From Saccharobesus litoralis (GTDB lineage: Bacteria > Pseudomonadota > Gammaproteobacteria > Enterobacterales > Alteromonadaceae), in the NCBI RefSeq assembly GCF_003063625.1, contig NZ_CP026604.1, positions 1,178,001 to 1,242,000 on the forward strand: DNA of 64,000 nt, given 5' to 3'. Below the pieces are notes generated by a model. That model made no database searches, was not told where the DNA came from, and worked only from the letters and a program-made list of their open reading frames with translations. Shown piece after piece: positions 1 through 38,779 of the stretch. The translations under genes were made by a program, and so were the position numbers. Numbering within the stretch: position 1 is the first letter of the stretch; every line of letters starts with the position of its first letter.

Positions 1-3000
1 TTAACTGTGCTGGCTTTAAATTGATCGGGTGCGTAAGTCAAACGCAGACTTAATCCAGCCTCTTCTTCAATCACGTTTAGCTCTAAGCCGTAGTTGGTCA
101 TTTCAAAACCAGAGACAATCTGTGGTCGTGCAACTTGGGCTTGTGGATCGCTAGCACCCGCAGCGACATGACGATAACTTTCGAAATCGTAGGTGCAATC
201 AAACAATTCCGTTAACTGATAATCGCCACTGGTTTGGCGTGCCATATTGGCCACTTCAGATAATGGGAATAAACAGTTGTCCAGTAAACCCGTCATTTGC
301 TTATGGGTAAGCTGTAATAGCTCCGCCACGGATAGATCATGATTTAATTCAGCAACATAAGGTAAGGTGTTTAAACAACAGCCGACTATGCTATGACTAT
401 TCGCGACGGCGTCTGTACGACCCGAAGTAATCAGGCCCAAATTAATTTGGTTTTGTTGTTTAACAACCCGCAGCAACAGTAAGAAAGCGGTTAAGGTTAC
501 TGTATTTAACGTGACCCCTTGTTGCTTAGCTAATTGTTGCAATTGCTGATAACGCCCATCACCAATATTAACTGTGACTAATTGGCTTTTGTTTTCTGCT
601 AGGCCCGCGTTGTTATTTGTTAGGCCAGAATCACTCAGTAAACCGACGCGCTCAAAATTGATTAATTGATTAACTTGCTGTTGCCAGTAATAGCGAGTGC
701 TATCTAGCTGTGTAACTTGCTGCTGACCAACAATATAATCAACATAACTTGCGGTCACAGGAGGCAGTGATACAGGCTTATTAGCCAGTAAGCTAGCGTA
801 GATAGCAGCAACTTCATCCAAAACAATGGCTAAGCTCCAACCGTCATGAATAAGATGATGAACACTGAGCAATAATCTAAATTGCTCGCTCTCATCTATA
901 TTGCTATCCGAACGGTTTTCTAAACTATGGGTCGGAAAAGCGGTTAAACGCAATAAAGGTTCAGCTTCTAAGCCAAATCCGCGTTGGCCATCTAACGCAA
1001 GGTAATCAGCAATAGTTAAGTCGATATCCTCAGCGCTCATGGCGCGCAAATCAACCTCACTAATAGCTAACTCTAGTTGACTTAATACCCCTTGTACCGG
1101 ATGCGACAAACCGCTCGCGAAAATTTGTGTGCGTAGCGCCGGATGACGCGCAATCACGATTTGCCAAGCTTGTTGTAGCAAGTTGAGGTTGTAAGCTTGA
1201 TTAAATTGATAAACCACTTGCACTTGATACATTTGCGAATCCGGTGCTGAAACACTTTGCAAGTAAATGCCAGACTGAATATCGGATAGAGGCAATACAT
1301 TTTGCAAATTAGCCGGTAATGTAGCCAACTCTTCTGTGCTGAGCTTTGCTAGAGGAAAATCGCTCGGGGTACGTTGCGCACAATGCAAACTCTCGCAAGT
1401 TGTGGTTAATTCATTAAACTGTTCAACAATTAAATCCGCTAGTAGATTAGCTGATTGGTTATCGAAATAAGCCTGATGAAAATACAATTCAAAATGTAGC
1501 TCGCCATGACTAATAAAGGCCTCAATCGCTAACTCATAAGGGGTACGATTATCGGCATGGCTTTCAACCGCTGACATGTCTAAACGTTGCCAACCATCGG
1601 TTGGCGTATCTATAACACCTGAATAGTTAAAGATCACGTCGCTAGCTTGGTAGTCGGCAAAAGCCGTGTTTACCCGTTCAGAATTGACTTTTTCAGCTTG
1701 AGTTAAATAGCGTAATACACCAAACGAGGCGCCGTTACAGATTTTGGCACGCTTAGCTTCTTTTACCGCTAGCAAGGTGTCCGATAAACTTTGGCCTTTG
1801 GCAGTATTCACAGCTAATGGAAAAATACTGGTAAACCAACCAACCGTTTGATTTAAGTCTATCTGATCATTACCAAAGGTTTGTCGTCCATGCCATTCAA
1901 CATCTAAGCAAACTTGGCTGCGCGCCATTAATATACTTAACGAACGATACACTGCCGCTAGGGCTAACTCTTCATTACTCGCGTTAAAATATTCACGCGC
2001 TAACTTAACCACTTGCTGACTTTGCTTTACAGTTAATTTAACCGTTTTACGTTGCAAACTAGCCGTTGTCGATAACCCTGGTGCTTGTTGGGCACGGATA
2101 ATTTGTTTATTGCTTACGGCTAATTCTGGTTGCCATAAAGGTAAATAGTTTTCAACAAAGTCATCTTGTTCTGCTAATTGGCTTAAAAACAAAACCCAAC
2201 TTGCATAAGCACTGGTTTTATCGACCAATTGTGCGGGTTTGTTGTCAATGAGAGCTTGATAACAGGTTTGTAGATCTTTGCTAATAATATACCAGCTCAC
2301 GGTATCCACTAACGCGTGGTGCATCACCCAAATCAGTTGATAGCTTTGCTCCGCCAATTGACACAAGGCGATACTATGCATGGGTTTGTCTAGGCGAATA
2401 TCACGGCGCAAACCTTGGCTGATTTCCGCAATCTGCGCTTGCTGATGCTCACGACTGAACGAGCATAAATCAACAAATTGAATGCTAAGCGGATCAGCTG
2501 AGTGATCATCAAGTAGAGCAGCTTGGTCTATAGTTTGTTGTTGTTGCTTAAGATCAATAATACTAAGTAACTGCTCATGGCGCTTAACAACCGTATTCAC
2601 GGCTTGTTGCAACAAAGGTAAATTGACTGCTTGCTCTATCTGCCAAGCCATAGACTGATGATAATAACTAGGCTCAGCAAAGTTTTGTTCTGTAAACCAC
2701 AGTTGAATGGGGGCTAATGGATAGGCCGTTGTTGGCGCGCGACTATCGATTTTCGCCTGTTGCTGTAACGGTTTTAATTGCGTCACTAGTTGGCCAACTT
2801 GAGGAAAATGTCCTATATCCGACTGACTAACAGCAAAGCCCAAATCGTTTAAAGCCGATGCCAAACGTAGTGCCGAAACAGAGTCACCGCCGAGTAGATA
2901 AAAATTATCCTGAGCTGTGACCTCTGCGACATTTAACACTTTGGCCATTGCTTGGCACAGTGCAACTAACGCCGCGGTGGATGAAACAGTCATATTACCA

Positions 3001-4715
3001 TCAGCAGTGCTGGCAGATGTCGACCATTCGATGTCAGGCAAGCGGGCTTTGTCCACTTTACCACTGGTCGTCATAGGGATTTCATCTAGCCATTGGTAAT
3101 GAAATGGCACCATATGCTTAGGCAAGTTCTGGTGACAAAAGGCCGCAATATCCTGCGTATCGATTTGTTGAGCTAAAGGGTTAACAACCAAGTAAGCAAC
3201 TAAACGCTTAGTTTGATTGCTATCTGGGGTATAAACCACAAAAGCATCTTGCACTGCATTATGGGTTTTGATCAACTCACGTATTTCGCCTAGCTCAACA
3301 CGCATGCCATTGATTTTAACCTGTTGGTCGGCACGGCCCACTATGGTCGCATTGCCATGCTGGTCTATCGATCCCAAATCGCCAGTACGGTAATAGGTTT
3401 TGCCTGCTAGCTTAATAAAGGCCTTGCTAGTTTGTTCGCTAAGCCCGAAATAACCCTGTGAAACACAATCACCGGCAATTAAAATCTCACCTGAATTATC
3501 GGTGTCTTTGCTATTTTCTGGGGCACTATTGTCTGTGTAAGTATGGACATCCAATACCACCAAATCTTGTTCGGTATCATGAGACACAATGAAACTAGCA
3601 ATGACCAACTCACTATTAGCCACGGGTTGACCAATTGGCAATATTTGACTATCGGGCCATGCGTTAATTACAGCACTTTCAATTTCATAAGCAGTACAAT
3701 AGACAGTGGTTTCGGTTGGCCCATAGATATTGACCAAGCGACACGGTGACAACACATCAAGATAATGTTTTGCCAAGCCAACCGGAAATGGCTCGCCGCC
3801 AACCAGCATGATCCTTAGCGTTGGCATTTGCGCCTTTAAGTCGGAAGTTAAATAGGATTTAACCATCTCTAGCGCTGTCGGTGAAAACGTCGCGACACTA
3901 ATAGATTTGTCAGCCAACAATTGCACTAGATGCTTAGGCTCTGTGGTTTTCAACGAAGGGAAAATCACGACGTGAGCAGCATTTAGCAGCCCTGAAAATA
4001 GTTCGCCAATTGATGCATCGAAACTAAATGATGGGATCTGCGAAACAACATCGTTTACACCAACTTGATAAGCTTTTTGATAATGCAAAGCGAGATTTAA
4101 AATTTGCTGATGGCCGTTAACTACGCCTTTGGGTTTGCCTGTGGTACCAGAGGTAAACAGTAAATAAGCCGGATCTTGACCTTTAGTAACTGGCATTGGA
4201 AGCGAATCAATACTGGCAGGCACAGTATATTCGAGTTGTTGCCACCATTGACTAACATTAAAAAGACGGGCTGAGCTGTTGGCGTTAGCTAACGCCACGC
4301 TTGCTTTTTGATCGGATAAAATCAACTGACTTTGGCTAATCTCCAGCATGGTCGCGATCCGCTCGGCGGGATATTCAGGATCAATCGGCACAAAAACCGC
4401 GCCGGCTTTCAATGTTGCCAACACCGCCACGACATAATCTAAACCTTTGTCAAAAGCTAATGCCACATGGTCGCCTAGCTCAACACCTTGGGTTATTAAT
4501 TCGCAGGCTAAGCAATCTGATAACTCATCCAATTGCTGATAGGTTAATCGCTGACTGCTAGTCGTATTTGCCGCAAAACTCAGCGCAACTTGCTGGCTGT
4601 GTTGTGCAACAATCTGCTTAAAAAGCTTAATCACTGACCATTCACGATTATACTCGTGCGATCGACCTACTAGTTGCGACTGTTCTTGATTCGGATTTGC
4701 CTGTAAACTTTCCAT
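1..4715 (-). CDS. NRPS, A-PCP-E-C, 3' end outside the window
   Basis: Non-ribosomal peptide synthetase; 1571 codons are open to the left edge with no stop in frame. Domains in order: adenylation (about residues 25-520; LLFTSGTTGKPKG, FSFDAS, YGPTETT, YRTGDLG, GRADQQVKINGMRVE), peptidyl carrier (LGGDS, Ser612), epimerization (about 660-1110; PIQLWF, HHALVDTVSW at 799-808, VEWHGRQ, TVGWFTSIFPL, FNYSG) and condensation (from about 1150; PLSDIQSG, HHLIHDGWS at 1286-1294). The third domain is called E and not C because it carries the E-specific motifs. One residue is activated, loaded and epimerized, so the next C should be of the D-accepting type. The ATG lies 5 nt after the aminotransferase stop with AGGAG inside that gene's end, which suggests coupled translation. 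The protein starts directly with A; its partner C domain seems to be at the end of the large PKS. By-eye pocket residues are about D-A-G-T-M-V-I-V-Y, which I cannot assign. Confidence 0.93.
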   Translation of the reverse strand, partial: MESLQANPNQEQSQLVGRSHEYNREWSVIKLFKQIVAQHSQQVALSFAANTTSSQRLTYQQLDELSDCLACELITQGVELGDHVALAFDKGLDYVVAVLATLKAGAVFVPIDPEYPAERIATMLEISQSQLILSDQKASVALANANSSARLFNVSQWWQQLEYTVPASIDSLPMPVTKGQDPAYLLFTSGTTGKPKGVVNGHQQILNLALHYQKAYQVGVNDVVSQIPSFSFDASIGELFSGLLNAAHVVIFPSLKTTEPKHLVQLLADKSISVATFSPTALEMVKSYLTSDLKAQMPTLRIMLVGGEPFPVGLAKHYLDVLSPCRLVNIYGPTETTVYCTAYEIESAVINAWPDSQILPIGQPVANSELVIASFIVSHDTEQDLVVLDVHTYTDNSAPENSKDTDNSGEILIAGDCVSQGYFGLSEQTSKAFIKLAGKTYYRTGDLGSIDQHGNATIVGRADQQVKINGMRVELGEIRELIKTHNAVQDAFVVYTPDSNQTKRLVAYLVVNPLAQQIDTQDIAAFCHQNLPKHMVPFHYQWLDEIPMTTSGKVDKARLPDIEWSTSASTADGNMTVSSTAALVALCQAMAKVLNVAEVTAQDNFYLLGGDSVSALRLASALNDLGFAVSQSDIGHFPQVGQLVTQLKPLQQQAKIDSRAPTTAYPLAPIQLWFTEQNFAEPSYYHQSMAWQIEQAVNLPLLQQAVNTVVKRHEQLLSIIDLKQQQQTIDQAALLDDHSADPLSIQFVDLCSFSREHQQAQIAEISQGLRRDIRLDKPMHSIALCQLAEQSYQLIWVMHHALVDTVSWYIISKDLQTCYQALIDNKPAQLVDKTSAYASWVLFLSQLAEQDDFVENYLPLWQPELAVSNKQIIRAQQAPGLSTTASLQRKTVKLTVKQSQQVVKLAREYFNASNEELALAAVYRSLSILMARSQVCLDVEWHGRQTFGNDQIDLNQTVGWFTSIFPLAVNTAKGQSLSDTLLAVKEAKRAKICNGASFGVLRYLTQAEKVNSERVNTAFADYQASDVIFNYSGVIDTPTDGWQRLDMSAVESHADNRTPYELAIEAFISHGELHFELYFHQAYFDNQSANLLADLIVEQFNELTTTCESLHCAQRTPSDFPLAKLSTEELATLPANLQNVLPLSDIQSGIYLQSVSAPDSQMYQVQVVYQFNQAYNLNLLQQAWQIVIARHPALRTQIFASGLSHPVQGVLSQLELAISEVDLRAMSAEDIDLTIADYLALDGQRGFGLEAEPLLRLTAFPTHSLENRSDSNIDESEQFRLLLSVHHLIHDGWSLAIVLDEVAAIYASLLANKPVSLPPVTASYVDYIVGQQQVTQLDSTRYYWQQQVNQLINFERVGLLSDSGLTNNNAGLAENKSQLVTVNIGDGRYQQLQQLAKQQGVTLNTVTLTAFLLLLRVVKQQNQINLGLITSGRTDAVANSHSIVGCCLNTLPYVAELNHDLSVAELLQLTHKQMTGLLDNCLFPLSEVANMARQTSGDYQLTELFDCTYDFESYRHVAAGASDPQAQVARPQIVSGFEMTNYGLELNVIEEEAGLSLRLTYAPDQFKASTV

Positions 4716-4720
4716 TGTAA

Positions 4721-5974
4721 TTACTCTCCTATTACGACTTTGATTGCATCGCGTAAAATATCTAACCCTTGCATCAATACGCTTGATTCTGTGGTTAACG
4801 GCGGCATAATTTTTATCGCAGTGTCGTTACGCCCTGCACGCTCAACAATCAAGCCATTAGCAAAGCAGATATTTAAAATGGCACTGGTAGTTTCTTCGGC
4901 AAAAGCACTGCAATCCAACGCCCAGATCATGCCAATGCCGCGCACTGCAAGTTGCGGATTTAACACACTGATCTGGGTATCGATATATTCAGCAATCAAA
5001 CGCTCATTGCTCTTGACCAAGCTACTTAAATTGTTGTCGTCGGCAAACTTCAACGCGGCAGTTGCCGCAACAAAAGCTAATTGGTTGCCGCGAAAAGTAC
5101 CGTTGTGTTCTCCCGGTAACCAATTTTTGTCGAGCTCTTCGGTTAAACACAACAAAGAAACGGGTAGGCCATAACCACCCAATGATTTGGATAAAACCAC
5201 CATATCCGGTTTGATATTCGCGCGCTCAAAAGAGAAGAAATCACCACTGCGATAGCAGCCGACTTGGATGTCATCGATAATTAAATAAATGCCAAACTTG
5301 TCGCATAACTTGCGTAGCCCTTGTAACCATTCAACTGGCGCAACGACTACGCCGCCCTCAGCTTGCACAGTTTCAACAATAACTGCAGCCGGTAAATCAA
5401 CCCCAGATGAAGGGTCGCTCAGTACGGCTTCCATATAGGCTAGCGTATCAAATGACTTCATAAAGCCATGCGGGTAAGGCATAAACGTCGTGTCGGAAAC
5501 AGGGAAGCTTGGATCTCTATGGTATTTATTGCCCGTGAGCGCAAGTGCACCCAAAGTCATGCCGTGATAAGCGCCCATAAAAGCAAAAACGTTGCGACGG
5601 CCTGTGGTTTTGCGCGCTATTTTTATCGCGGCTTCGACTGCATTAGTGCCTGTCGGGCCACAAAATTGCAATTTGTATTGTAAATCGCGCGGCTTAAGAA
5701 TGAGTTCATCAAAGGTTTGGATAAACTCGGCTTTAGCTGAGGTATGCAGATCTAAGCCATGAATAATATTGTCTGAGTCTATGTAGTCTTTAATTTTTTG
5801 CTTGATCGCATCATTATTATGACCGTAGTTAAGTGAACCCGCTCCTGCTAAAAAGTCGATATATTGGTTACCGCTTTCTGAATATAAAAAACTACCTTTT
5901 GCTCGATTAAATGTAACCGGAAAACTTCTGCAATAAGAGCGTACTACCGATTCTTTCGCTTCAAATACCGTCAT
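4721..5974 (-). CDS. Diaminobutyrate--2-oxoglutarate aminotransferase, EctB-like
   Basis: Class III PLP aminotransferase of 417 residues, the usual EctB/Dat length. It should convert aspartate 4-semialdehyde plus glutamate to L-2,4-diaminobutyrate in the cytoplasm. Family signatures are clear: VRSYCRSFPV near the N-terminus, FLAGAGSLNYGHNN, QFCGPTGTNAVEAA (residues 103-116), the DDIQVGC motif at 234-240 with the PLP-binding Asp, SKSLGGYGLP with the PLP lysine K263, and EHNGTFRGNQ. It lies between the tandem AT and the NRPS; no ectA or ectC is next to it, so a role in precursor supply for the NRPS is more likely than ectoine synthesis. That role is inferred from position. The start is supported by an AGAG about 10 nt upstream. 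Confidence 0.9.
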   Translation of the reverse strand: MTVFEAKESVVRSYCRSFPVTFNRAKGSFLYSESGNQYIDFLAGAGSLNYGHNNDAIKQKIKDYIDSDNIIHGLDLHTSAKAEFIQTFDELILKPRDLQYKLQFCGPTGTNAVEAAIKIARKTTGRRNVFAFMGAYHGMTLGALALTGNKYHRDPSFPVSDTTFMPYPHGFMKSFDTLAYMEAVLSDPSSGVDLPAAVIVETVQAEGGVVVAPVEWLQGLRKLCDKFGIYLIIDDIQVGCYRSGDFFSFERANIKPDMVVLSKSLGGYGLPVSLLCLTEELDKNWLPGEHNGTFRGNQLAFVAATAALKFADDNNLSSLVKSNERLIAEYIDTQISVLNPQLAVRGIGMIWALDCSAFAEETTSAILNICFANGLIVERAGRNDTAIKIMPPLTTESSVLMQGLDILRDAIKVVIGE

Positions 5975-5997
5975 AATTTTATTCTCTAACTTACTTG

Positions 5998-7914
5998 TTA
6001 ATCTGCTAATAATTCCACTGTCTGCTGCAGTGTTTCGCGGTTGCGACCAAACTGGTTGATCAGGGTAAATGCCTTAACATGGCGTGAGTCGCCAACACCA
6101 TGTTTAACTAAACTCGCCAATGAACCAGTGGCACTCATATCGATTAAATTAAATTGGCCTATATCAATCGCGTTCACCGTGCTGATGAAGTGCACAGGCT
6201 CGCTAATCACTTGCCATAAATGTTCTGGGGTAAATTGTTCGACTTGTGCTTGGCTTAAGCAGGAGTGCAATGCAATTGCAGGATCGTTAAATTCAACCTT
6301 GGCCAGCTCTGCCAAATATTCACTTTCTATCGCTTTAATCGCATTACTGTGAAATGCATATTGCACCGGCAGTATTTGACTATGAATAGATTGACTGTGA
6401 ATAGATTGACTATGAGTAGGCTGGCCATCAGTAATGGTACTGCTTAAGCTAGCTTGGATTTGGCTTAATGCTTGGCGATCACCACTTATCAATAAGTTGC
6501 CTTGATGATTAACGCCAGCAATATAAACATCTGGCCGCTGGCCAACTAAACGTTGCCAGGTTTGCTGATCTGTCATCACCGACATCATGGCGCCTTTTTC
6601 GGCTTTTTGTTCCAGCAACTGCGCTTGTTTTACCACTAATTTTAGCCCAGTAGTAAAATCAAACACGCCAGCAACAGTTGCCGCGACAAATTCGCCTAAG
6701 CTATGACCTAACACAGCATCGGGTTTAATCCCTTCGGCCAGCAAAGTTTGATACAAGGCGTAGCTGACGCAATAAATCGCTGGATGGCTACTTGCCAAGT
6801 AATCAAACTCATCACTCGCTGGTGACTGGTAAATTTCATCAATTAATGAATAACCAGCTAGCTCAATAAACGCTTGATCGCACAACTCTAGCTGACGTTT
6901 AAACTCTGGGTGATATTGATAGAGCTCTTGTGCCATGCCAAAGTATTGCGAACCTTGACCGGCAAACATCAATAGATTTTTACGTTGGCTGGCTGGCAAC
7001 ACAGGGCGTTGTTCAGATATTTGTTTAGCACGCTGTTGCTCTAGCAAATTAAGCTGCGACTTCGCCATCGGTGTGTCTTTAATAGTGCGCACCATTTTCG
7101 ACAACACCATACCTGGGCCAATTTCTTCAAACTCTTTATAGCCTTGATCTAATAGCCATGAGACAGATTCATACCACAGCACTGAGCCAGCAATTTGTTG
7201 CTGGAGTAATGGGAAATAGTCTTGCTCTGGGTAAGGTCTGGCAGTGACATTAGCGACCACAGGTAGTTGTAATGGTTTGAATGCAAATTGCTTAGCAAAT
7301 TCTGCGAACTCAGTGGCAACCGACGCCATATAACGCGAGTGAAATGCCGCACTGACTTTTAACGGTACGTAGCGCGCACCTTGTTCGCTAAACAGGCTCT
7401 CGGCGGCGCCAATATCATCAAATAAGCCTGAAACAATAATTTGTTCTCGGCTGTTGATATTAGCAATGTCGATGCCATTAAATTGCGAACCTTGCAAAGT
7501 GGTTACAACTTGTTCAAGCGGTAACGACATAACAGCAGCCATTGCGCCTTTCGGTGCCTGCGCCATAAGCTCGCCACGTTTTTGCACTAGCTTTAAGCCC
7601 GTAGCTAAATCAAACGCGCCGGCTGCATATAAAGCTGCGTACTCACCTAAGCTATGACCCGCCAAATAATCTGGCTGCTGACCGCCATTTTGCAAATAAT
7701 CGTGATATTGCAACGCGCTAACAAAGAACAAAGCTGGCTGTGTGTATTGGGTTTGATTTAGCACGCCATTAGGATCCTGTAAGCATAATTCGACAATCGA
7801 ATAGCCTAAAATCTCATCTGCTATTAACACCCAATCTGGATAACGTTCGAATAACGCTTCACCCATACCCACATGTTGCGAACCTTGGCCGGGAAAAACA
7901 AAAACCTGTGACAT
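5998..7914 (-). CDS. Tandem trans-acting acyltransferase (AT-AT)
   Basis: Free-standing protein of 638 residues with two FabD-like acyltransferase domains. AT1 spans about 1-290 (FPGQGSQ, GHSLGEY with Ser88, AAFHS) and AT2 about 312-630 (FAGQGSQ, GHSLGEF with Ser405, YAFHS). Both keep the Ser-His pair. In trans-AT systems one such domain loads malonyl units on the AT-less modules, and the second is often a malonyl AT or an acyl hydrolase that clears stalled chains. Which does which here cannot be read by eye. The 7380-residue PKS has no AT, so this protein is the obvious supplier. AT2 carries an odd insertion made of three five-residue repeats (HSQSI type, about 6375-6425). The gene ends 23 bp before the aminotransferase start and follows the small ACP gene. 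Confidence 0.92.
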   Translation of the reverse strand: MSQVFVFPGQGSQHVGMGEALFERYPDWVLIADEILGYSIVELCLQDPNGVLNQTQYTQPALFFVSALQYHDYLQNGGQQPDYLAGHSLGEYAALYAAGAFDLATGLKLVQKRGELMAQAPKGAMAAVMSLPLEQVVTTLQGSQFNGIDIANINSREQIIVSGLFDDIGAAESLFSEQGARYVPLKVSAAFHSRYMASVATEFAEFAKQFAFKPLQLPVVANVTARPYPEQDYFPLLQQQIAGSVLWYESVSWLLDQGYKEFEEIGPGMVLSKMVRTIKDTPMAKSQLNLLEQQRAKQISEQRPVLPASQRKNLLMFAGQGSQYFGMAQELYQYHPEFKRQLELCDQAFIELAGYSLIDEIYQSPASDEFDYLASSHPAIYCVSYALYQTLLAEGIKPDAVLGHSLGEFVAATVAGVFDFTTGLKLVVKQAQLLEQKAEKGAMMSVMTDQQTWQRLVGQRPDVYIAGVNHQGNLLISGDRQALSQIQASLSSTITDGQPTHSQSIHSQSIHSQILPVQYAFHSNAIKAIESEYLAELAKVEFNDPAIALHSCLSQAQVEQFTPEHLWQVISEPVHFISTVNAIDIGQFNLIDMSATGSLASLVKHGVGDSRHVKAFTLINQFGRNRETLQQTVELLAD

Positions 7915-7969
7915 AACTAACCCAAATCTATAACATCATTTATTAAGTGGTCTAAATAAGTATCTTGAC

Positions 7970-8236
7970 TTAGGCTGTCGCTTCGGCCATTTTCTTGGCG
8001 AAAACATCAATCACGTTTTCCAATGTGTAGATGTCACGTTTTTCGTAATCGTGAACTTCAACTTCTAATTTCTTTTCAATGTCGTACCAAATTTCCAGCA
8101 TTTCACGCGAATCGATCCCTAAGTCGCCACCTAGGTAAAAATCTAAATCGACATTGGATTCGTCAAAGGCGGTTTTCTTGCATTCGTTTATGGCTGCGAA
8201 TACGGTGTTGATAATGGTTTGTCTAACTTGGCTCAT
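7970..8236 (-). CDS. Free acyl carrier protein
   Basis: Acyl carrier protein of 88 residues with the phosphopantetheine site LGIDSREMLEIW; the serine is in GIDS, near residue 43. The chain is acidic and helical, as usual for the family. A strong AAGGA lies 8-10 nt before the ATG. It sits directly downstream of the alpha-oxoamine synthase and upstream of the tandem AT. This matches the dedicated ACP that serves serine palmitoyltransferase-type enzymes in bacterial sphingolipid loci, so it may present an acyl thioester to that enzyme. This partnership is inferred from gene order. Confidence 0.9.
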   Translation of the reverse strand: MSQVRQTIINTVFAAINECKKTAFDESNVDLDFYLGGDLGIDSREMLEIWYDIEKKLEVEVHDYEKRDIYTLENVIDVFAKKMAEATA

Positions 8237-8280
8237 GATTTTTTTCCTTAATTATTAATATTCAGACTAAGCGCGAAATA

Positions 8281-8318: not shown

Positions 8319-8352
8319 AGACTCAGCAAGAACTAAATGTTATTTTTTACTG

Positions 8353-10693: not shown

Positions 10694-10761
10694 GCTAAAA
10701 TTCCTTGTCTTATTCTTGTCAGTTTCTTGCCCGTTTCTTGCCCGTTTCATATCGAACAGCG

Positions 10762-28700: not shown

Positions 28701-31700
28701 CAATGTAATGCGCTTGGCCAAATTCAGTTAATTGGTTTAACTGATCAAGTTTTTGCTGTTTGTTGTCATCAAGCTTTGAACGGCCAGTTAAGTAAACTTG
28801 CGCATTGAAGTTTTCTAGCAAGTATTTGGCAAACACTAAGCCAATACCGCCCATACCGCCGGTGATCAAATAATGACCTTGGTGGCGTAATGCGGTTATG
28901 TCTTCTCTGATCTCAGCTTTGGCTAGTTGACTAAAGCTGCGGCTAAAACGCTGTATTCCTTTATTGTTAGCGTCTTCAAGCTTTGTGCCTTGATAAAGTA
29001 CTTCAAACCCTTGACTCTGAGTTTGCCAATCAGTTGTAATAAATTGATTAAGCGAATTAAAGTCTGCCGTAACATTTTCTAGTAATGATTGCTCAACAGT
29101 GAAAACTCTGCCTTTAAAGTTTGGCTTCTCAACTTTTAAAGTTTTAAATAAACCCGCCAGTGCTTGGATATAGGGTAAGGCAGCTGTATTGTCTTTTGCG
29201 GCTAATACGCTAATCTGCAACGACTTACATTGGGTAATTAACGATTTAATTAACAAGAATACATTGAGACCAACATCTGTGAATTGAATGTCTGAATCAG
29301 CTAGTTGGCTGAAATCGAAAATCAAACGCTGTGGCAATTTACCTATCGTTTTTAGTTGCTCAACAACGGCTTGATAACGTTCTAATTGGTTAGCTTGAAC
29401 CTGATAAACTGTATTCGTTTGAGCTGCGTCGATTTGAGCTGCTTGGCTATCTGATTCATTAGCGACAATCTGTAACAACTGACACGTATCTGTTGCCGTA
29501 ATAGAAGTGCTAACCGTGGAAACGTATAAGGTTTGTTGTGCATCAAGGCTTTTCTCTGTTTCACCTGATACTTCACCTACTACCTCAGCGGCTTTAGTCA
29601 AAGCAGAGGGTAACCAGACTGGGTAATAATAGTGCTGTAAAATGTCAGTCGCTGTTTCAGCTTCGCCTTCAGGAGCTAGTGCAACGACTTGTTGTTTATC
29701 GCTAACCGCTGGGTTTTCACCATCACCTTTCATTTCACGCAAAATAAAGTTATCGACTTGTACCAGTGGTTTACCTTCTAAATCCGTTAACACTAAGTCG
29801 AATTGCTTTTTCGCTTGGTCGATAATACGTGAATAAACCAAGACTTCAGTTTGCATTGGCGCAATCAGTTTTACGCTAGAGAAATGGAACGGCAATATTT
29901 TAACGTCGTAGTCGTTAGTGTATTGCACATGCATCATTGCGGTTTGCACGATGCCATCCATTAATGCGGGATGAAAAGCAAATTGTTCAAATTCAGCCAA
30001 TAAATTATCAGGCAACACAAGCTTTGCTATTGCTTGGTCGCCATTAAACTGCATGCGTTTTAGCACTTGAAAACTGCGTTTTTGAATGATGCCAGTTTCA
30101 ATAAACTTAGGGTAAACATCGCTGATTGCCCATTCGTCATTCATTTGTGCTTGTAGTGCTGGAACATCTAATTGCGCTACCGCAGTTGGCTGGTAATCAG
30201 CATCTGGCCAAGCGATTTTGCCACGCGAGAAAATCGTCTCAGTGACTGGATCGTGTATTTGATAATTCAGGTCTTGCTCATCAACGGTTAAATCAATTTC
30301 AACTCGACGCTCTTCAGGAACCGAAATAACGTTAGAGAACCAAACATCGCGAATTTCCACCGCCATTTCAGCCACTGCTTCTGACGCACATTTGCGCGCC
30401 ATTTCTAGGTGACAAACACCTGGGATCACGTAAGTTTCATTAACCAAATGGTCGCGCAACACAAACTCGCTGGTGCGGAAAGTTTTAGCGAATTTTTGCT
30501 GATAGACAGTCGAAATATTTTCATCGACTAACGGGTGCAACAAATTGTTATTTGGCGTTAAATCCACCAATGGCACAAGCGGATAGCCTTCTAACAACCA
30601 TGAACGTTCTTTAGCAAAAGCATAAGTCGGCAATGGTACTTTTCGGCTGTTTTGCTGTAGCGCGCTAAATAAAGCTAAATCAGTTTTTTCACATTCACCG
30701 CTAACCCAAGCTTTAGCCCAGTCAACAAGCTCAAGTTGTTGCTCTGCCGAGCCGTCAGTTTGATTATCTTTTGCCGTTGCAAGCAGTACGTAGTTAATGG
30801 TTTGCCATTGTTCAGTTTCGGTCGCCGCCAATTGATTCAATTGTTGTTGTAGCTCGTCAATTGATGAAGCCAAAATAACCAGTCGTTCTGTTTCGGCTTG
30901 GCGTCCCGCTAACAAGCTGCTGGCAATATTAATTAGACTGTAACAACTGGCTGTTTCGGCTGGTAATAAACTGACTTCGGTGTTAAAGAAGTCTGCTAAA
31001 TCAGCAACCATTTGGGCTAGTTGCGCTTGGCTTTGCGCAGATAGAACGACGGGTAATTGACCAAAGTCTTTTGAAGTGAAATTTTGCTCACTTATATAGT
31101 TTTGAGCAATTAAATGCGCGTTTGAGCCGCCTGCGCCGAATGAACTTAATCCAGCGACCATAGCTGGGGCATCGGCTTGGCCGACGCTATTATCAACGTG
31201 GCTAGCAGCCCACTTTTGGTTTTCTTTAACTAAGTAAAATGGCGAATCTGCTAATTTTAATTTCGGGTTTTCGTTCTCTGCATGCAAGCTTGCCGGCAAG
31301 GTTTGGTTTTGCATCGACAGCAAGATTTTAATCAAGCCTGCGACACCAGCTGCCGCTTCTAAATGACCAATATTTGATTTTAACGAGCCAATCGCGCAGA
31401 ACTGTTTTTGCTGATCTGCTGCTGCAAGTGAATCCGGCGCAAATGCATTAGTTAGGCCGGTAATTTCAATTGGGTCGCCTAACTCAGTACCTGTGCCATG
31501 ACATTCAACATAATTAACCTTGTTAGCGGCAATGCCCGCGCGATCGATAGCCGTTTTAATTAAATCTGTATGAGCCACTGGGTTGGGTACGGTATAGCCA
31601 GTCACTTTGCCACCATGATTGGTAGACGTACCGCGAATAACACCATAGATGAAATCACCATCGCGTTCGGCTTGCGCTAATGGTTTAAGTAACACCGTGG

Positions 31701-33283: not shown

Positions 33284-34024
33284 CTAACAAGTTAAGCCAC
33301 CATCAATTACTATGGTTTGTCCGGTAACAAATCGAGCTGCGTCAGACAGCATAAACTCGACAACACCGGCGACATCTTCAACTTCTCCCAAGCGCCCTAA
33401 CGGCGTGCGGCGTTCAATTTGTTCTTTGCGCGCTTGGGCCATGCCATGCGTCATGTCAGTGGCTAAAAAGCCCGGTGCAATTGAATTAACCCGAATTTTT
33501 TTACTGCCCAGTTCGCGCGCTAAACTACGTGAAAAGCCATCCAATGCTGCTTTAGTCGCCCCGTAAACCGAAACACCTTTAAAACCACGCACACCGAGTA
33601 CCGAGCTAATATTGATAATGCTGCCCGATTGTTGGCGCAACATAACCCGTGATACTAAGCGTGATAGGCGCATGGAAGAGGTTAAGTTAAGCGCTAAAGT
33701 ACGCTCCATTTCTTCGTCTGTCGTGATTGGTAAAAGTGCATCCAAGGTCGCTCCTGCGTTATTCACTAAACCATCAATACGTCCAAATTTTTGATAAACC
33801 TGATTCACAAACAGCTTTAACGCTTCAGCATCAGTAATATCCAAAGGCGCCCAAAAAAAGTTGTCTGGATTAGCGGCTTGTGCAGTTTCGACAAAATCTG
33901 TTTTCGAACGGCTAAACGTTGCTACCGCGTGGCCACTTGCCATTAATTGTTCTGCAATACCACGCCCTAAACCTCGGCTACCACCACTGATGACAATAAC
34001 TTGCTTATTTGTTGACTGTGCCAT
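33284..34024 (-). CDS. SDR reductase, FabG-like 3-oxoacyl-ACP reductase
   Basis: Classical short-chain dehydrogenase of 246 residues. GGSRGLGRG (14-22) binds NADP(H), NNAG is at 88-91, the catalytic Ser is in INISS (about 140-141) and YGATK gives Tyr154 and Lys158. PGFLATDM and the C-terminal TGQTIVIDGGLTC are typical of FabG. It reduces a 3-oxoacyl thioester to the 3-hydroxy form. The start is 5 nt after the ligase stop (TAA-GGAAA-ATG), so the two are translationally coupled. With the free ACP and ligase it could tailor the starter unit before the PKS; this is inferred from the operon. Confidence 0.9.
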   Translation of the reverse strand: MAQSTNKQVIVISGGSRGLGRGIAEQLMASGHAVATFSRSKTDFVETAQAANPDNFFWAPLDITDAEALKLFVNQVYQKFGRIDGLVNNAGATLDALLPITTDEEMERTLALNLTSSMRLSRLVSRVMLRQQSGSIINISSVLGVRGFKGVSVYGATKAALDGFSRSLARELGSKKIRVNSIAPGFLATDMTHGMAQARKEQIERRTPLGRLGEVEDVAGVVEFMLSDAARFVTGQTIVIDGGLTC

Positions 34025-34029
34025 TTTCC

Positions 34030-35412
34030 TTATGCCTCTGTTGTTTTTGTTGTTTGTTTGCGGGATTTTTTCAGACGATCACTCATAAAACTGTTTTGTG
34101 AGATCATCACTAATTTAGGAACTTTAAAAACTTCTAGCTGATCTTGGCAGTGCGCTACAACGCGTTGGTACAAGGCTTTGCGTTCTTCCGGCTGTTCTAA
34201 TACAAACGTCGCCAACACAATGTTGCCAGTAACCGGGTTCGCTTTACCTTGTACTAGCACTTCTTTCACGTTTGGCATTTCCAGCAATACACTTTCAACT
34301 TCTGCCGGATAAACCTTTTCACCGCCAACATTAATAATCTCGCTTTCGCGACCTAAAATTCGATAGTAGTCACCATCGACTTCAACCCGATCACCCGTGT
34401 TGTACCAACCATCAGCAGTGAATGGCGATGGTGCATTGAGATAGCCCAACATCGCGGTTTGCGTTTTGATAAATAAGATGTGGTTTTCCACTTTAGTCGC
34501 GACACCTTCGCCACCAATTTTGACCCAATCCGAGTCATTCGATTTTGATTTAGTCGAGAAAATACCCAGCTCAGTTAGGCCATAAGTTTGCTTTAAGCGC
34601 ACTTCAGGAAAAACCTTACATACCGACTTAAGCGTCGACATTGGCATAGGCTCAGTACCATAGGTAATCACCTTTAAGCTAGATAAGTCGTACTGCTGAT
34701 GTAAACCAGACAATAACAACATATTGAGAAAGGTAGGAGTTGTCGGTAGTAACTGAACTTGATAGCGTTCGATGACTTCGCATACTTCCGCAGCCGAGCG
34801 ATCATATGTTGAAACAGCCGTGCCGCCAGAAAACAAGATGGAAAATAAAGTGTTCAACCCACCGATATGATCAAGCTTTAAAAAGACTAAACAGCGCAGC
34901 GCTTTATCAGGATTAACCGCCATATTTTCGAAACGCGTTAAAATACGCGTTGCCGATAACACCGCGCCTTTACTTTCGCCAGATGTACCAGAAGTAAACA
35001 ACACCAAACCCGCTTCTTGGCTATGCTGCAGTTCGCCAATCAATTGATGGTTATGAGTCGGCGTTACAAGGGTTAATTGCCAATTTATGCAACCATCAGT
35101 CATAGGTGTAGCCGTAAAGCAAGTTTGCACATTGGCTAATTCAAAAAAGCGTTTATGCTTCGCTTGTGTTTCCGTGGTTAGTGGCACCACAATCGCGCTA
35201 CGCATTAACAAGGCAATAATTAAAGCCGCACTATCTGGACTGTAATCGGCAATAACCGCCACAACGTGGCCTTGTTCAATATTTTGCTCGTCTAAACGGT
35301 TTTTCCAAGTCGCGATTTGCTCTAATAACTCGCTGTATGTGACTTGCTGCTGATGATTGATAAAGGCGGTTTTGTCAGCAAACTGCTGCAAACGCGCTAA
35401 CATCCAGCTCAT
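34030..35412 (-). CDS. AMP-dependent acyl ligase (ANL superfamily)
   Basis: Adenylate-forming ligase of 460 residues. FTSGTSGESKG is the phosphate-binding loop; TYGLTELG, GWYNTGDRVEVDG and GRESEIINVGGEKVYPAEVE are the later core motifs. It should activate a carboxylic acid as acyl-AMP and load it on CoA or, given the neighbouring gene, on the free ACP. It is shorter than most acyl-CoA ligases and has no transmembrane segment. The C-terminal motif that usually reads SGK reads SDR (NSFMSDRLKKSRK), so the lysine that assists adenylation appears to be Arg or shifted. The substrate is not predictable by eye. The gene lies between the ACP and FabG genes with gaps of 30 and 5 nt. Confidence 0.85.
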   Translation of the reverse strand: MSWMLARLQQFADKTAFINHQQQVTYSELLEQIATWKNRLDEQNIEQGHVVAVIADYSPDSAALIIALLMRSAIVVPLTTETQAKHKRFFELANVQTCFTATPMTDGCINWQLTLVTPTHNHQLIGELQHSQEAGLVLFTSGTSGESKGAVLSATRILTRFENMAVNPDKALRCLVFLKLDHIGGLNTLFSILFSGGTAVSTYDRSAAEVCEVIERYQVQLLPTTPTFLNMLLLSGLHQQYDLSSLKVITYGTEPMPMSTLKSVCKVFPEVRLKQTYGLTELGIFSTKSKSNDSDWVKIGGEGVATKVENHILFIKTQTAMLGYLNAPSPFTADGWYNTGDRVEVDGDYYRILGRESEIINVGGEKVYPAEVESVLLEMPNVKEVLVQGKANPVTGNIVLATFVLEQPEERKALYQRVVAHCQDQLEVFKVPKLVMISQNSFMSDRLKKSRKQTTKTTEA

Positions 35413-35442
35413 ATCCTTTCCCCTTATGCTATTACCAATGAA

Positions 35443-35706
35443 TTAAGCTGGCTCTGCAGATAATGCGTTTTGGTATACGGCAATCAGCTCACCGACTGAG
35501 TGAACTTCCATGATGGACACGCCTTGACTAAACGGGTCAATGCCAAACTCCATTTCTAGTACGGCGACTAACTCAGCCACGTCTAATGAACTAAAGCCTA
35601 GGTTTTTAACGACTTTAACTTCTTCGTTGATTTCTTTTAACGGATAACCGTTGCGCTCTTGGATCTCACGTAATACTGAATATATGGTTTGTTGTACTGT
35701 ACTCAT
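35443..35706 (-). CDS. Free acyl carrier protein
   Basis: Acyl carrier protein of 87 residues; the modified serine lies in LGFSSLDVAELVAVLE, where the common D of GxDS is Ser. The start at 35706 is chosen because AAGGAG lies 6 nt upstream and the protein then begins MSTVQQTI, as ACPs do; a longer frame from 35739 would add an unlikely 11-residue lead. It lies between the LnmK-like gene and the acyl ligase. By analogy with the LnmK/LnmL pair it may be the carrier on which a short acyl group is placed. Confidence 0.88.
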   Translation of the reverse strand: MSTVQQTIYSVLREIQERNGYPLKEINEEVKVVKNLGFSSLDVAELVAVLEMEFGIDPFSQGVSIMEVHSVGELIAVYQNALSAEPA

Positions 35707-35774
35707 CGAAAACTCCTTATCACTGTTATTATTTTCCATCGGGTTAAGACCACAATGGCTTGGTCAAACATGAC

Positions 35775-36773
35775 CTAAATGGGTTGATTCAACTGGTTAA
35801 TTTTTCGCACTAAATCTGGAATTAAATCTTGCTCTTGCATAGGTACGGCAAACACTTTCTTAGCTTTTGCCATGGCAATTAAGGTGCCGGTACGCTTTTG
35901 ATAGATCTCAAAGCGAATATTCAAAAAAGCGGCTGCCACAAAGTCGAGGTCATCACTCAACTCATCATCTTCTACTGACTCAATATTGCCAGCGAGATAG
36001 ACAGCTAACTCTTCACCTGCATAACAGTTGCCATAGTAATAAATTTCACGTTCTAAAATATTTAGGTGACTTAGCATGCCATCGGCAATACCCGGCTCTA
36101 TTTGATGCGCTAAAAAGTCAGCTTCGGCTAAATCCATCACTTCACTAAATTTGGCGAATATCATGGCATGACCCGGCATAGCATCACGGCCTTTAGCAAT
36201 GGAGTAAATATAAGGCTGCGAGCTAGTAAATTCGCCTATTTTATCTGCTGCTAATAAATTCGCCGCGCGCACTTTACGCGATTGGGCAATACCTGCTGGT
36301 GAGCGACGCGCCTTTACTAGCTCAGTTATTTTATCTGGGTTGGGGTTTAGTACTTGTCTTTTAGTCCCACCGCCATTTATTTCCTCAGCCACTAATAAGT
36401 TATTACCCGCCATGGTAATGAATTGCGCTGATTGCCATTGTTCTAGGTCATCAGGTACTTGACCTTCACTGGCAATCACGTAGTCAGATTCCAATAATGT
36501 GTCACCAAATTTACGCACATCAACCCCGACAGAAACCTTATCCCAAAGCTTGATAGACGGTAACAACTGCGTGAGCGGCACCTTTAAATGCGTCATAAAA
36601 TACGCCGGATACAAGGTCGTTCCATCCATTGCCTGAATATCATTTGGGGTAATCGACAATCCGCGTACCAAATGGTGTGAATGGGCGTTACCAAATAACA
36701 CCATCAATGCATATTCGTTTAAATCACCTAACCCTAAATGGCTCATGGTTAATTCAACATTTTCTACTAACAT
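35775..36773 (-). CDS. LnmK/Pnap_2097-like double-hotdog protein
   Basis: Protein of 332 residues. Its opening MSHLGLGDLNEYALMVLFGNAHSHHL resembles the M-P-H-L-x-x-x-G-L-S-E-x-x-L-L-k-x-x-G-d-x-H-W signature of the LnmK family as I recall it, and the length fits two tandem hotdog folds (about 1-150 and 165-320). LnmK of leinamycin synthesis is a bifunctional acyltransferase/decarboxylase that makes propionyl-ACP from methylmalonyl-CoA; relatives occur in many biosynthetic clusters with unknown roles. A free ACP gene follows directly, as in the LnmK/LnmL pair, but no HMG-synthase or crotonase partner is visible in this window. The start has AAAGGA 6-7 nt upstream. Activity on methylmalonyl-CoA is not shown by the sequence. 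Confidence 0.6.
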   Translation of the reverse strand: MLVENVELTMSHLGLGDLNEYALMVLFGNAHSHHLVRGLSITPNDIQAMDGTTLYPAYFMTHLKVPLTQLLPSIKLWDKVSVGVDVRKFGDTLLESDYVIASEGQVPDDLEQWQSAQFITMAGNNLLVAEEINGGGTKRQVLNPNPDKITELVKARRSPAGIAQSRKVRAANLLAADKIGEFTSSQPYIYSIAKGRDAMPGHAMIFAKFSEVMDLAEADFLAHQIEPGIADGMLSHLNILEREIYYYGNCYAGEELAVYLAGNIESVEDDELSDDLDFVAAAFLNIRFEIYQKRTGTLIAMAKAKKVFAVPMQEQDLIPDLVRKINQLNQPI

Positions 36774-36930
36774 GATTATCCTTTTCTGCCGCAGCAGATT
36801 TAACTATCCCTGAGTACTATTATCTTATTAACAATAATATTGCGTGGATTTTAGATTTAATCCAAAAAACTGCAATCACCAGCAACGACATTTTTGTCAC
36901 AACATGGTGATTTTTATAACCAGTTCACAA

Positions 36931-37683
36931 TTAACTAAATATTAGATTAGGCTCAATTTGCTGTCTAAGATCATGCAACAATGCTTGTCTGCCAGGCTCT
37001 AAATAAAAATGCCCACCAGCATACGTTTTAACACCTAAAAATTCAGTTGTTAACTCCTGCCAACAAGCCATTTGTTGTGGTTTGACAACATCGTCATCAA
37101 CACCGCAAAAGCCTTGTATTGGACACTGTAATTTGACTACTGGCGCGATATAAGTCTCGGCAATTTTAAAATCGGCTCGGAACATAGGCAGCAGCATTTG
37201 CATAAATTCAGCGTCGCGCAAGATAACCTCTGGTGTACCATTTAAACGACTAATTGCCGTGATCAGCTCGTTATCTGGCAACTGATGAATATAACAGCTT
37301 TGTGCTTTTCCCTGATGCGCAGCTCGACTAGCTGAGACAAAAAAGCATTCAGGTAAAGCTGCCGATAAGCGCTGAATTTCACTTAAAACAGCGTAAGCAA
37401 TTCTCGATCCTAGGCTATGACCAAACACAAAATAAGGCACACCTGATAACGCCAATACAACCGGCAACAACTCATTGACCATTGCCTGTATGTTGTCATA
37501 AGGAGGCTCATTAATACGCGCTGAGCGACCTGGTGGTTGAATTGCAATCACTTCAATATCTTGTGCTGACAAGCAAGACCATTGTCGATAAGCACTGGCA
37601 TTACCACCCGCATAAGGGAAGCAAATTAGCCTTGCACGCGGATTGGCCACTGAGTTGATTTTAACTAATGCTTGGCTGTTCAT
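36931..37683 (-). CDS. Type II thioesterase
   Basis: Alpha/beta-hydrolase thioesterase of 250 residues, standard TEII length. CFPYAGGNASAYRQW (21-35) is the family start motif, GHSLGS holds the nucleophile Ser90, GVDDDVV near 192-198 the acidic residue, and GGHFYLEPG near 226 the catalytic His. Such enzymes remove wrong or stalled acyl groups from carrier domains of PKS and NRPS lines. Its place in the same run as the PKS fits that editing role. No clear Shine-Dalgarno sequence precedes the ATG; the 280 bp upstream hold a MITE-like element. Confidence 0.92.
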   Translation of the reverse strand: MNSQALVKINSVANPRARLICFPYAGGNASAYRQWSCLSAQDIEVIAIQPPGRSARINEPPYDNIQAMVNELLPVVLALSGVPYFVFGHSLGSRIAYAVLSEIQRLSAALPECFFVSASRAAHQGKAQSCYIHQLPDNELITAISRLNGTPEVILRDAEFMQMLLPMFRADFKIAETYIAPVVKLQCPIQGFCGVDDDVVKPQQMACWQELTTEFLGVKTYAGGHFYLEPGRQALLHDLRQQIEPNLIFS

Positions 37684-37728
37684 TTTTTTATAATTATTAA
37701 TGTTTGATTAATTAAATAAGTGACTATT

Positions 37729-37850
37729 TGTCTTCTCGCTCAGGCCTTATGGTTCATTGTCAGCGCTTACTCGCCCCAATCACATAATAGAGCATATGCT
37801 CATGGGGTCTCGAAGCTTGACGGCTTCCCCTAAAACCTGATCGCTTTGAC
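37729..37850 (+). repeat. MITE-like element, copy 1 (short, decayed end)
   Basis: About 122 bp in the gap between the PPTase and thioesterase genes. It shares TCTTCTCGCTCAGGCCTTAT, GGTTCATTGTCAGCGCTTAC, CACATAATAGAGCATATGCT, GGGGTCTCGAAGCTTG and CCTGATCGCTTTGAC with two other copies. The outer TAG/CTA ends are lost or changed here. Confidence 0.8.
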
Positions 37851-37963
37851 AACAGCTGACCGGCGAACCACTTAACTAATAGATGCGCCACCATACATAA
37901 ATAACTCAACTAGTTAACCACAAAAGTAAGTGGTCAGAGCTGTGAACAGTATATTAGCGTTAA

Positions 37964-38779
37964 CTAATTCACTGTTTTTAGCCAAATTGGCTTAGTAACC
38001 GCTCTTTTCCGTGTTAACGATTGATATTCATAAAAGTTAACAGCCTCAATTGCACCATCATATTTAATGGCTAACGACAGCTGATAATTAGCTGCAAACT
38101 CAAAATTGTAAAAATGATACAAATTCGCCTCTACCCCGAGACTGCTGGATGCTTTGAACTGTATTTTTTCTGATTCCAAAATAAAGCGAAACTTATCTAG
38201 GTTAATCGACAGCCCTTTACCTTCTGCTTTGATAAATGACTCTTTCAATGTCCACAAACGATAAAACTCTGTGATTTTCTGTGGCTGAGGCCATTGTTCT
38301 AAATATTTCGCTTCTTGCTTAGTAAAAAAACGGGGCGCTAGTAAAGTCAAATCGCGACTGGATTGCTCTTTCTCTATATCAACACCCAACTCTAATGTGA
38401 CGTCTTGCTGAGGAAAGCAACAAATAGCACAAACAATATAATCGCCAGCATGAGAAATATTAAAAACTAGCTGGTCGCGGGTTTGATTATCAACTAAGGG
38501 TTTACCCCAGCGATTTTGCGTAAATTGCCACTCTTTTGGCGTAATTTCAGGTGCTACATCACTTAACAATAATCGAATGAATATGCGCGTTAACAGATAA
38601 CGCGTTTGATCTTTGGCAAAATGAAAGCGCTTAGCTTTACTTACTTCATCTACTGTTACAACGTCACCAAACGAGGTGAGCAATTCATCAAAATAAAAAT
38701 CTGACGTATTAATATAGCTTAGCGCTATTATGGGTTTATCCATGTTCTGGTTTTGTAATCCTTGTTGTTTTGTATTCAT
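37964..38779 (-). CDS. 4'-phosphopantetheinyl transferase, Sfp type
   Basis: Protein of 271 residues that moves 4'-phosphopantetheine from CoA to carrier-domain serines. GVDIE (132-136) and WTLKESFIKAEGKG (176-189) carry the Mg2+- and CoA-binding acids and lysines (Asp134, Glu136, Glu180, Lys184); FNISHAGDY is the upstream motif. The first ATG is kept because AAGG lies 7 nt before it. The broad-range Sfp type is what a locus with eight or more carrier domains needs. It is the right-most gene of the biosynthetic run; the next gene to the right is a secreted polysaccharide enzyme. Confidence 0.93.
   Translation of the reverse strand: MNTKQQGLQNQNMDKPIIALSYINTSDFYFDELLTSFGDVVTVDEVSKAKRFHFAKDQTRYLLTRIFIRLLLSDVAPEITPKEWQFTQNRWGKPLVDNQTRDQLVFNISHAGDYIVCAICCFPQQDVTLELGVDIEKEQSSRDLTLLAPRFFTKQEAKYLEQWPQPQKITEFYRLWTLKESFIKAEGKGLSINLDKFRFILESEKIQFKASSSLGVEANLYHFYNFEFAANYQLSLAIKYDGAIEAVNFYEYQSLTRKRAVTKPIWLKTVN

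Follow-up and report, generated by a model that had tools for sequence, protein, structure and literature searches.

In Pseudomonas fluorescens MYb115, PfSgaB, an alpha-oxoamine synthase (AOS) encoded behind a polyketide synthase (PKS), shows serine palmitoyltransferase (SPT) activity, and sphinganines are the products of its cluster (PMC12134224). In zeamine biosynthesis, a free condensation (C) domain was proposed to join a peptide-polyketide thioester to the amine of a polyamine (PMC3547906), and rhodobacterial SPTs prefer as acyl donor acyl-AcpR, AcpR being a dedicated acyl carrier protein (ACP) (PMC9386255). The subject of this work is a hybrid gene cluster of Saccharobesus litoralis that encodes a PKS served by a free acyltransferase (trans-AT PKS), two nonribosomal peptide synthetases (NRPSs) and an AOS. 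Its right-hand part lies in the window, the 64,000-nucleotide stretch analyzed (bases 1178001-1242000 of the 5.66-Mb contig NZ_CP026604.1; the genome has 5.87 Mb in two contigs). On balance, the cluster seems to make a peptide whose C-terminus is amide-linked to a polyketide-derived, sphingoid-like amine.

The PfSgaAB system likewise releases a PKS chain through an AOS, but it is a two-gene system that has a single iterative PKS and lacks a peptide part (PMC12134224), whereas the Saccharobesus locus combines a modular trans-AT PKS with two NRPSs, a supply of diaminobutyrate (Dab) and exporters. An AOS with SPT homology stands beside the PKS here too; instead of a single-module iterative PKS, however, there are five ketosynthase (KS) domains, and three to four in relatives (two of them cut) from the family of Cellvibrio and the family of a Lysobacter metagenome-assembled genome (MAG). 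Zeamine clusters also have separate lipid-amine and peptide lines and an ABC exporter, and for them an end joining by a C domain acting on a free amine is proposed (PMC3547906, PMC13291983), as it is, more tentatively, here. They differ in using a polyunsaturated fatty acid (PUFA)-type synthase with an aminotransferase and a thioester reductase in place of a trans-AT PKS with an AOS, and their C domain is a free protein, while here a C-superfamily domain forms the tail of an NRPS. The lipid side of the Saccharobesus locus is a modular KS-DH-KR-ACP line with a trans AT rather than a PUFA-type synthase. Fabclavine is a comparable system of the zeamine type. The pyoverdine line differs in that it makes a siderophore, and it is not known to contain a PKS or an AOS. 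Pyoverdine biosynthesis (PvdL/PvdH) obtains Dab from aspartate semialdehyde (PMC6206403), as would be the case here, and PvdL has one adenylation (A) domain with a code read by eye as DIWELTADD. The rhodobacterial SPT likewise stands beside a dedicated ACP, but that system relies on an acyl-ACP synthetase to load a fatty acid, whereas here the acyl chain would be expected from the PKS (PMC9386255).

A further cluster for comparison is GCF_3 of shipworm symbionts, which corresponds to "region 1" of Teredinibacter turnerae (PMC7329324, PMC2699552). It likewise pairs a trans-AT PKS with one NRPS in a hybrid cluster of Cellvibrionaceae, the accessible part of PMC7329324 names no compound for it, and by comparison of descriptions it probably belongs to the same cluster family. 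The butuanimides of a Teredinibacter were considered as a product match and rejected; their cluster is of the andrimid type. In the literature searched, mostly outside subscription journals, a trans-AT system and an oxoamine synthase were not found together, no product for the cluster family was found in papers on Cellvibrio and trans-AT systems and on Teredinibacter, and papers on polyketides in Catenovulum appeared to concern other subjects. Each half thus has a precedent (SgaAB and zeamine), and the combination looks new.

Proposed pathway and the polyketide line

Each chemical step of the pathway is a prediction from gene and domain content, conservation and active-site residues. The PKS would extend a starter through four AT-less modules with malonyl units supplied by the trans AT, and an acyl-hydrolase half of the AT gene would clear mis-loaded ACPs. 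From the terminal KS, which no ACP follows, the chain would pass to a free ACP of 88 amino acids. The AOS would then condense the ACP-bound chain with an amino acid, with loss of CO2, and the resulting 2-amino-3-ketone would be reduced to an amino alcohol by a short-chain dehydrogenase/reductase (SDR). The two NRPSs would build the peptide from a free N-terminal residue, as the first module has no C domain, in the order X1 (epimerised)-Dab-like-Ser-like (epimerised)-(module without A core)-X5 (epimerised)-Ser-like. NRPS2 has no thioesterase; in its terminal C-superfamily domain, the free amino group of the amino alcohol would act as the nucleophile, so that the peptide is released as an amide. 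The resulting amphiphile would be exported by ABC, MMPL/RND, LolA-like and DUF1302 proteins. More tentatively, these steps may define a class of natural products whose logic was not found described: a sphingoid base from an AOS-released modular trans-AT PKS would free a cationic NRPS peptide through a terminal domain that forms its own branch of the C superfamily, and NRPS-ABC fusions, present in 7 of 10 relative loci with a readable tail, may physically couple assembly and export. The genes of the lipid side are as follows.

8353..9636, minus strand: AOS of the BioF/KBL/SPT superfamily, the proposed polyketide release enzyme
9692..10789, minus strand: SDR of the epimerase/3beta-HSD type, the proposed aminoketone reductase
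7970..8236, minus strand: free ACP of 88 aa adjoining the AOS, with no Pfam match and weak NCBIfam ACP matches
10762..32904, minus strand: trans-AT PKS of 7380 aa, mapped with custom hidden Markov models (HMMs)
12913..14229, minus strand: terminal KS5 of the PKS, ortholog of the terminal KS in the Cellvibrio-family relatives
10780..12234, minus strand: degenerate condensation domain (C*) at the end of the PKS, PF00668 66.9 bits
5998..7914, minus strand: trans-acting AT followed by an acyl-hydrolase-like half, two PF00698 stretches

The best solved relatives of the AOS are the SPTs 3a2b and 8guh (201.2 bits), followed by the KBL 1fc4 (200.6 bits), and alignment to the solved structures, read by eye, showed that the lysine and histidine motifs for pyridoxal phosphate (PLP) are retained. 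The protein is 71-76% identical in 12 loci of the two other families. Within the Cellvibrio family it is the most conserved gene of the cluster, at 72-76% as compared with 47-52% for the SDR and 39-43% for full-length AT genes. Family matches of the SDR begin at residue 33, and the TTG listed as its start therefore probably lies upstream of the real one. The 88-aa ACP has a homologue in all seven Cellvibrio-family loci and all four Lysobacter-family loci read; an AcpR-like role is proposed for it.

The domain order of the PKS is ACP-(KS1-DH-KR-ACP)-(KS2-DH-ACP)-(KS3-DH-ACP-KR)-(KS4-DH-KR-ACP)-KS5-C*, as mapped with HMMs that were seeded from the PKS and NRPS proteins of the locus and refined once on the loci. 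A first-pass annotation of the window had described an AT-less PKS with a free AT, and the count of PF00698 agrees with it: the domain occurs three times in the genome, twice in the tandem AT gene and never in the PKS. All five KS domains of this multimodular line without integral AT retain the Cys and both His residues, and DH2 and DH3 look degenerate. The same annotation's "tandem AT" held for the first half of the gene, which has GHSLGE, AFHS and the malonyl-binding Arg (KRGELM). The second half has an AT-like GHSLGE but Gln in place of that Arg (KQAQLL). The absence of the Arg is diagnostic of an acyl hydrolase (PMC11775670), which this half probably is.

In a tree of 32 KS domains from Saccharobesus and the Cellvibrio family, KS2, KS4 and KS5 grouped with the KS2, KS3 and KS4 of the relatives (supports 97/96, 99/97 and 100/100), and KS1 and KS3 fell outside; the tree carries a long-branch warning. 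The late part of the PKS line is thus common with the relatives and the starter end differs, in agreement with the extra starter-type genes of the Saccharobesus locus. At the other end of the protein, C* reads DNAVFSANDS at the HHxxxDG site and no catalytic His was seen by eye. The PKS tails of the relatives matched the C-lobe only of C domains (hhalign 98.1, template 190-426), and so did the N-terminal extensions of the Cellvibrio-family NRPSs (hhalign 93.1, template 246-426). Since the relatives hold C-lobe remnants and C* lacks the His, condensation of the polyketide with the first residue of the peptide is unlikely.

The peptide line and its terminal domain

Negative coordinates in the features below lie to the left of the window.

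-6729..4715, minus strand: NRPS1 of 3814 aa, with 1571 aa (1..4715) inside the window
-18622..-7004, minus strand: NRPS2 of 3872 aa
4721..5974, minus strand: EctB/PvdH-like diaminobutyrate aminotransferase for Dab supply, TIGR02407 561.9 bits (cut-off 552.2)

The custom HMMs gave A1-PCP-E-C-A2-PCP-C-A3-PCP-E for NRPS1, in which PCP is a peptidyl carrier protein and E an epimerization domain, and C-(A remnant, by eye)-PCP-C-A-PCP-E-C-A-PCP-Ct for NRPS2, in which Ct is the terminal domain. The "A-PCP-E-C NRPS" read at the window's edge was correct in its order, but it merely opens a peptide line that comprises five A domains and finishes with a domain of the C superfamily. The first module of NRPS1 has no C domain. 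Alignment to PheA gave the A-domain codes DAGTLGIVYK, DVWQSTADDK, DVWHFSLIDK, DAGALAAVVK and DVFHLSLIEK, of which we take the third and the fifth to resemble serine codes. The A remnant of NRPS2 corresponds to the C-terminal part of an A domain (residues ~480-600; L004 ~11197-11559, by eye), and the PCP of this module retains GGHSI; the residue of module 4 may be loaded in trans or skipped. The first E domain (NRPS1 residues 666-1096) has HHxxxDTxS in place of HHxxxDGxS in all eight loci listed, which are those of Saccharobesus and the Cellvibrio family.

The assignment of Dab relies on the aminotransferase, on the A2 code of Saccharobesus (DVWQSTADDK) and on the codes of the relatives. A domains of the relatives carry DIWE(L/M)T(A/L)DDK; the code region of G737 (DIWEMTADDK) is most like the solved PvdL chain, in which nine positions, read by eye as DIWELTADD, equal the code in several relatives. 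PvdL adds Glu, Tyr and Dab (PMC6206403), and we infer that the solved domain is its Dab domain; a literature search for "DIWELTADD" found no paper. EctB and a Dab-type code occur together in eight loci (Saccharobesus, six of the Cellvibrio family and G942) and both are missing in two (G870b and G1097). EctB was sought at the loci only, two further loci are cut (G1109, which has the code, and G1163), and the loci are related by descent, so that this is an agreement and not ten independent tests.

Pfam listed no thioesterase in five NRPS tails, that of Saccharobesus included. The tails of Saccharobesus and the Cellvibrio family matched 33 C domains of these loci with an hhalign probability of 98.3 (E 1.5e-14; query 123-498 on template 2-409), while the reversed and KS controls both gave 0.1. 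Lysobacter-family tails matched the other tails at 100 and the C domains at 97.4. All 10 loci displayed, including Saccharobesus, retain the His and Asp of xHxxxD (the display did not include G759, and the G1163 locus is cut). In addition, all 12 E domains aligned have Glu in a column where none of four terminal domains has it. The terminal domain appears to form a branch of its own, the third, within the C superfamily and could still catalyze amide formation; this step is the weakest of the model.

The NRPS continues past the terminal domain into a full ABC ATPase in 7 of the 10 relative loci with a readable tail, namely five of seven in the Cellvibrio family and two of three readable ones in the Lysobacter family. 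The fused loci are L060/L061 (G868), L063/L062 (G870a), L068/L069 (G873), L071/L070 (G872), L076 (G870b), G942 and G1109. The ATPase portions of the first five share 53-57% identity with the ATPase that Saccharobesus encodes as a free protein, and those of G942 and G1109 have Walker A and LSGGQ motifs. In G1097 (L090:6606-9419:-), the NRPS tail runs in the same frame into a HlyD-type membrane-fusion domain (66.9 bits), through either a true fusion or a lost stop codon.

Distribution in other gammaproteobacteria

The AOS was used to search for relatives, and a scan of genome contigs gave two loci at 73-75% identity, in Cellvibrio mixtus J3-8 and in the Lysobacter MAG. Of 144 Cellvibrio-family genomes, 6 have it, at seven loci in total (about 72-76%), as do 5 of 297 genomes of the Lysobacter family (71-75%). 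In the order of the source, it was found in 1 of 394 genomes, the source itself, whose genus is represented by one genome in the set searched. G874, a Cellvibrio-family genome with an AOS match of 37%, was excluded as having a different enzyme. The loci read around the AOS comprise all seven of the Cellvibrio family and four of the five of the Lysobacter family; the fifth (L031) holds 4.4 kb only. The first-pass annotation could not match the combination to a known compound; it does match a cluster family that is present in both of these families.

The SDR, AOS, ACP, AT and PKS tail were found in all 11 relative loci read, and so were a PKS and an NRPS together. In the Cellvibrio family, the MMPL, LolA-like, ABC and DUF1302 genes are present in 7 of 7 loci and EctB in 6. 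In the four Lysobacter-family loci, MMPL, LolA-like and DUF1302 genes were not found except for one MMPL stretch of 27% identity, the ABC genes are present in two and EctB in one. The G1163 locus breaks off inside the NRPS, and that of G1109 breaks off at the ABC permease. One genome has a second, divergent copy of the cluster (G870b, L074-L077), in which the PKS starts with A-KR-ACP instead of a KS and the AT-type genes are two separate downstream open reading frames (ORFs); EctB and Dab-type codes were not found at this locus. In G868 (L061, joined coordinates 69227-80000), a further PKS-NRPS ORF of 3591 aa, cut, with the A code DVGEIGTIDK, adjoins the cluster.

Alternative explanations

Several observations weigh against a peptide capped by a sphingoid-like amine, beginning with the terminal domain, which resembles E domains almost as closely as C domains (hhalign 97.8). 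A profile of five tails found bacitracin synthase 3 in the PDB (6.4e-11), where the best stretch (30.0 bits) is E-like by eye and the C-like stretch scores 17.7. Pfam Condensation scored 18.9-24.1 in four of the five tails (cut-off 30.6) and was not listed for G870b. In a tree built from 42 domains (C, E and terminal), made without the three Lysobacter-family tails, the four terminal domains formed their own clade outside both of the others (100/99, long branches), and our confidence is lowered because the domain lies outside the C clade. In addition, the model does not account for a PKS that closes with a KS and a C-lobe but no ACP, and module 4 of the peptide line holds an A remnant only. 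The AOS is below every NCBIfam equivalog cut-off, so that its family match points to no particular substrate amino acid. Finally, the A2 domain of Saccharobesus is nearest to the solved domain 9n1u, an unnamed NRPS (78.3 bits as compared with 71.7 for PvdL), which makes Dab less sure here than in the relatives.

A conventional lipopeptide, in which the first NRPS residue receives the polyketide acyl group on its amine while the AOS acts elsewhere, would account for a PKS that ends in a C-type domain and an NRPS1 that starts with A-PCP, together C-A-PCP. We consider it rather unlikely: C* has no catalytic His, the relatives retain the C-lobe only, their NRPS begins with a second C-lobe remnant, and the most conserved gene, the AOS, would be left without a role. 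The terminal domain could instead macrocyclize the peptide, for example onto a Dab side chain, with the AOS/PKS half making a separate sphingoid lipid. Release by cyclization through a C domain is mentioned in PMC3547906, Dab side chains could act as nucleophiles, and the MMPL and LolA-like proteins fit a lipid. Nonetheless, G1097 retains the terminal domain although its locus yielded no EctB and no DDK code, and the presence of PKS and NRPS together in 11 of 11 loci suggests one product, which makes cyclization likewise improbable.

X domains of glycopeptide synthetases recruit a partner, and the terminal domain may be a modified E/C-type domain of this kind, the peptide being freed by another route. 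Its position outside the C and E clades, its E-like stretches, the exporter parts borne by the NRPS tails of relatives and the type II thioesterase of the Saccharobesus locus fit such a role, which nevertheless seems very improbable since every one of the 10 loci displayed retains the active-site His and Asp of C domains and a type II thioesterase was not found in the 11 relative loci. The least probable of the alternatives has the AOS make a small building block (a PKS starter or an NRPS monomer) with release by the type II thioesterase. Saccharobesus has both this thioesterase and a GntG-type aldolase at the locus, but neither was found in the 11 others (upstream side visible in 9, downstream in 9), whereas all loci have the AOS, and every locus whose tail is readable and displayed has the terminal domain. 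If the sphingoid-capped peptide is correct, it defines a peptide family with a sphingoid-like base at the C-terminus that spans at least three gammaproteobacterial lineages and possibly shipworm symbionts. It would also make the AOS a sequence tag (>70% identity) for finding more clusters, link PKS-made sphingolipids with hybrid cationic lipids, and provide natural NRPS-exporter fusions to study.

Extent of the cluster and accessory genes

The thirteen minus-strand biosynthetic genes that the first-pass annotation placed in 1-38779 were all found at their positions, 11 with a matching family in Pfam or NCBIfam and the PKS and NRPS through the custom HMMs. Its view of one trans-AT PKS/NRPS cluster with Dab supply and an oxoamine synthase was supported, and no product was found. 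However, 1-38779 is only the right-hand part. The cluster extends left to about -26762 (26.8 kb beyond the window), where the rest of NRPS1, NRPS2, the export genes and an aldolase are all on the minus strand, so that much of the assembly line and all export genes lie outside the window. In addition to the genes given above, the left part and the right end of the cluster contain the following.

left of NRPS2, minus strand: MMPL protein of 857 aa (445 aa of it, in L004, scanned for families)
left part of the cluster, minus strand: LolA-like protein of 304 aa
left part of the cluster, minus strand: PLP aldolase of 363 aa, scoring 287 bits with the GntG family of NCBIfam (cut-off 230)
left part of the cluster, minus strand: ABC ATPase and permease
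ending the row at -26762, minus strand: DUF1302 protein
37964..38779, minus strand: 4'-phosphopantetheinyl transferase, PF01648 65.0 bits, at the right end of the cluster

Between the PKS and the transferase gene are the starter-side genes.

33284..34024, minus strand: FabG-like ketoreductase (Pfam/NCBIfam), not found in relatives
34030..35412, minus strand: AMP-forming acyl ligase (Pfam/NCBIfam), proposed to load the starter
35443..35739, minus strand: free ACP of 98 aa, PF00550 25.7 bits, the proposed starter carrier
35775..36773, minus strand: LnmK-family protein, TIGR04098 115.1 bits (cut-off 100)
36931..37683, minus strand: type II thioesterase, PF00975 125.3 bits

The LnmK, 98-aa ACP, FabG, type II thioesterase and aldolase genes were found in none of the 11 relative loci at E 1e-6, with the side upstream of the PKS visible in nine (not G1097 and G1109) and the downstream side in nine (not G1163 and G1109). 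They look like additions of the Saccharobesus locus. For the acyl ligase, the loci of the relatives yielded 19-26% matches only.

The designation "LnmK-like" is justified by the family match above cut-off, shared with LnmK of leinamycin biosynthesis (PMC8666670), although the Asn of the decarboxylation loop is missing. The protein has DAMPG, with Met at this position, as compared with an Asn-Gly loop in all five homologues with a usable frame (a sixth was dropped for a wrong frame). The role of this Asn is described in PMC8666670; since it is missing, the protein need not decarboxylate. A search of the PDB with it gave nothing up to E 0.01. LnmK exceeds the cut-off in 1 of 394 genomes of the source's order, the source itself, and in 7 of 398 across the phylum, the source included. 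Near the six other genes (stretches of 9.5-20 kb), no match to the AOS, SDR, ACP, AT or EctB was found at E 1e-3. LnmK was dropped as a marker of the cluster. In one of the six, G006, its neighbours are a thioesterase (32%) and a 3299-aa PKS (39% over 822 aa), so that it belongs there to another PKS locus.

The GC content of the cluster parts (0.417-0.447) and of the flanks (0.414-0.427) is uninformative, and a plasmid collection searched with DNA 33000-38800 and with the LnmK protein gave no match. A transposase-like ORF of 547 aa, named by its look, adjoins the left end of the cluster (-29187..-27544, L005). Directly beyond the right end, the window from 39131 to 64000 carries polysaccharide-degradation genes, including a porphyranase-type enzyme, a TonB receptor, and chondroitinase-B-like and alginate-lyase-2 proteins with F5/8 domains, together with LacI and AraC regulators.

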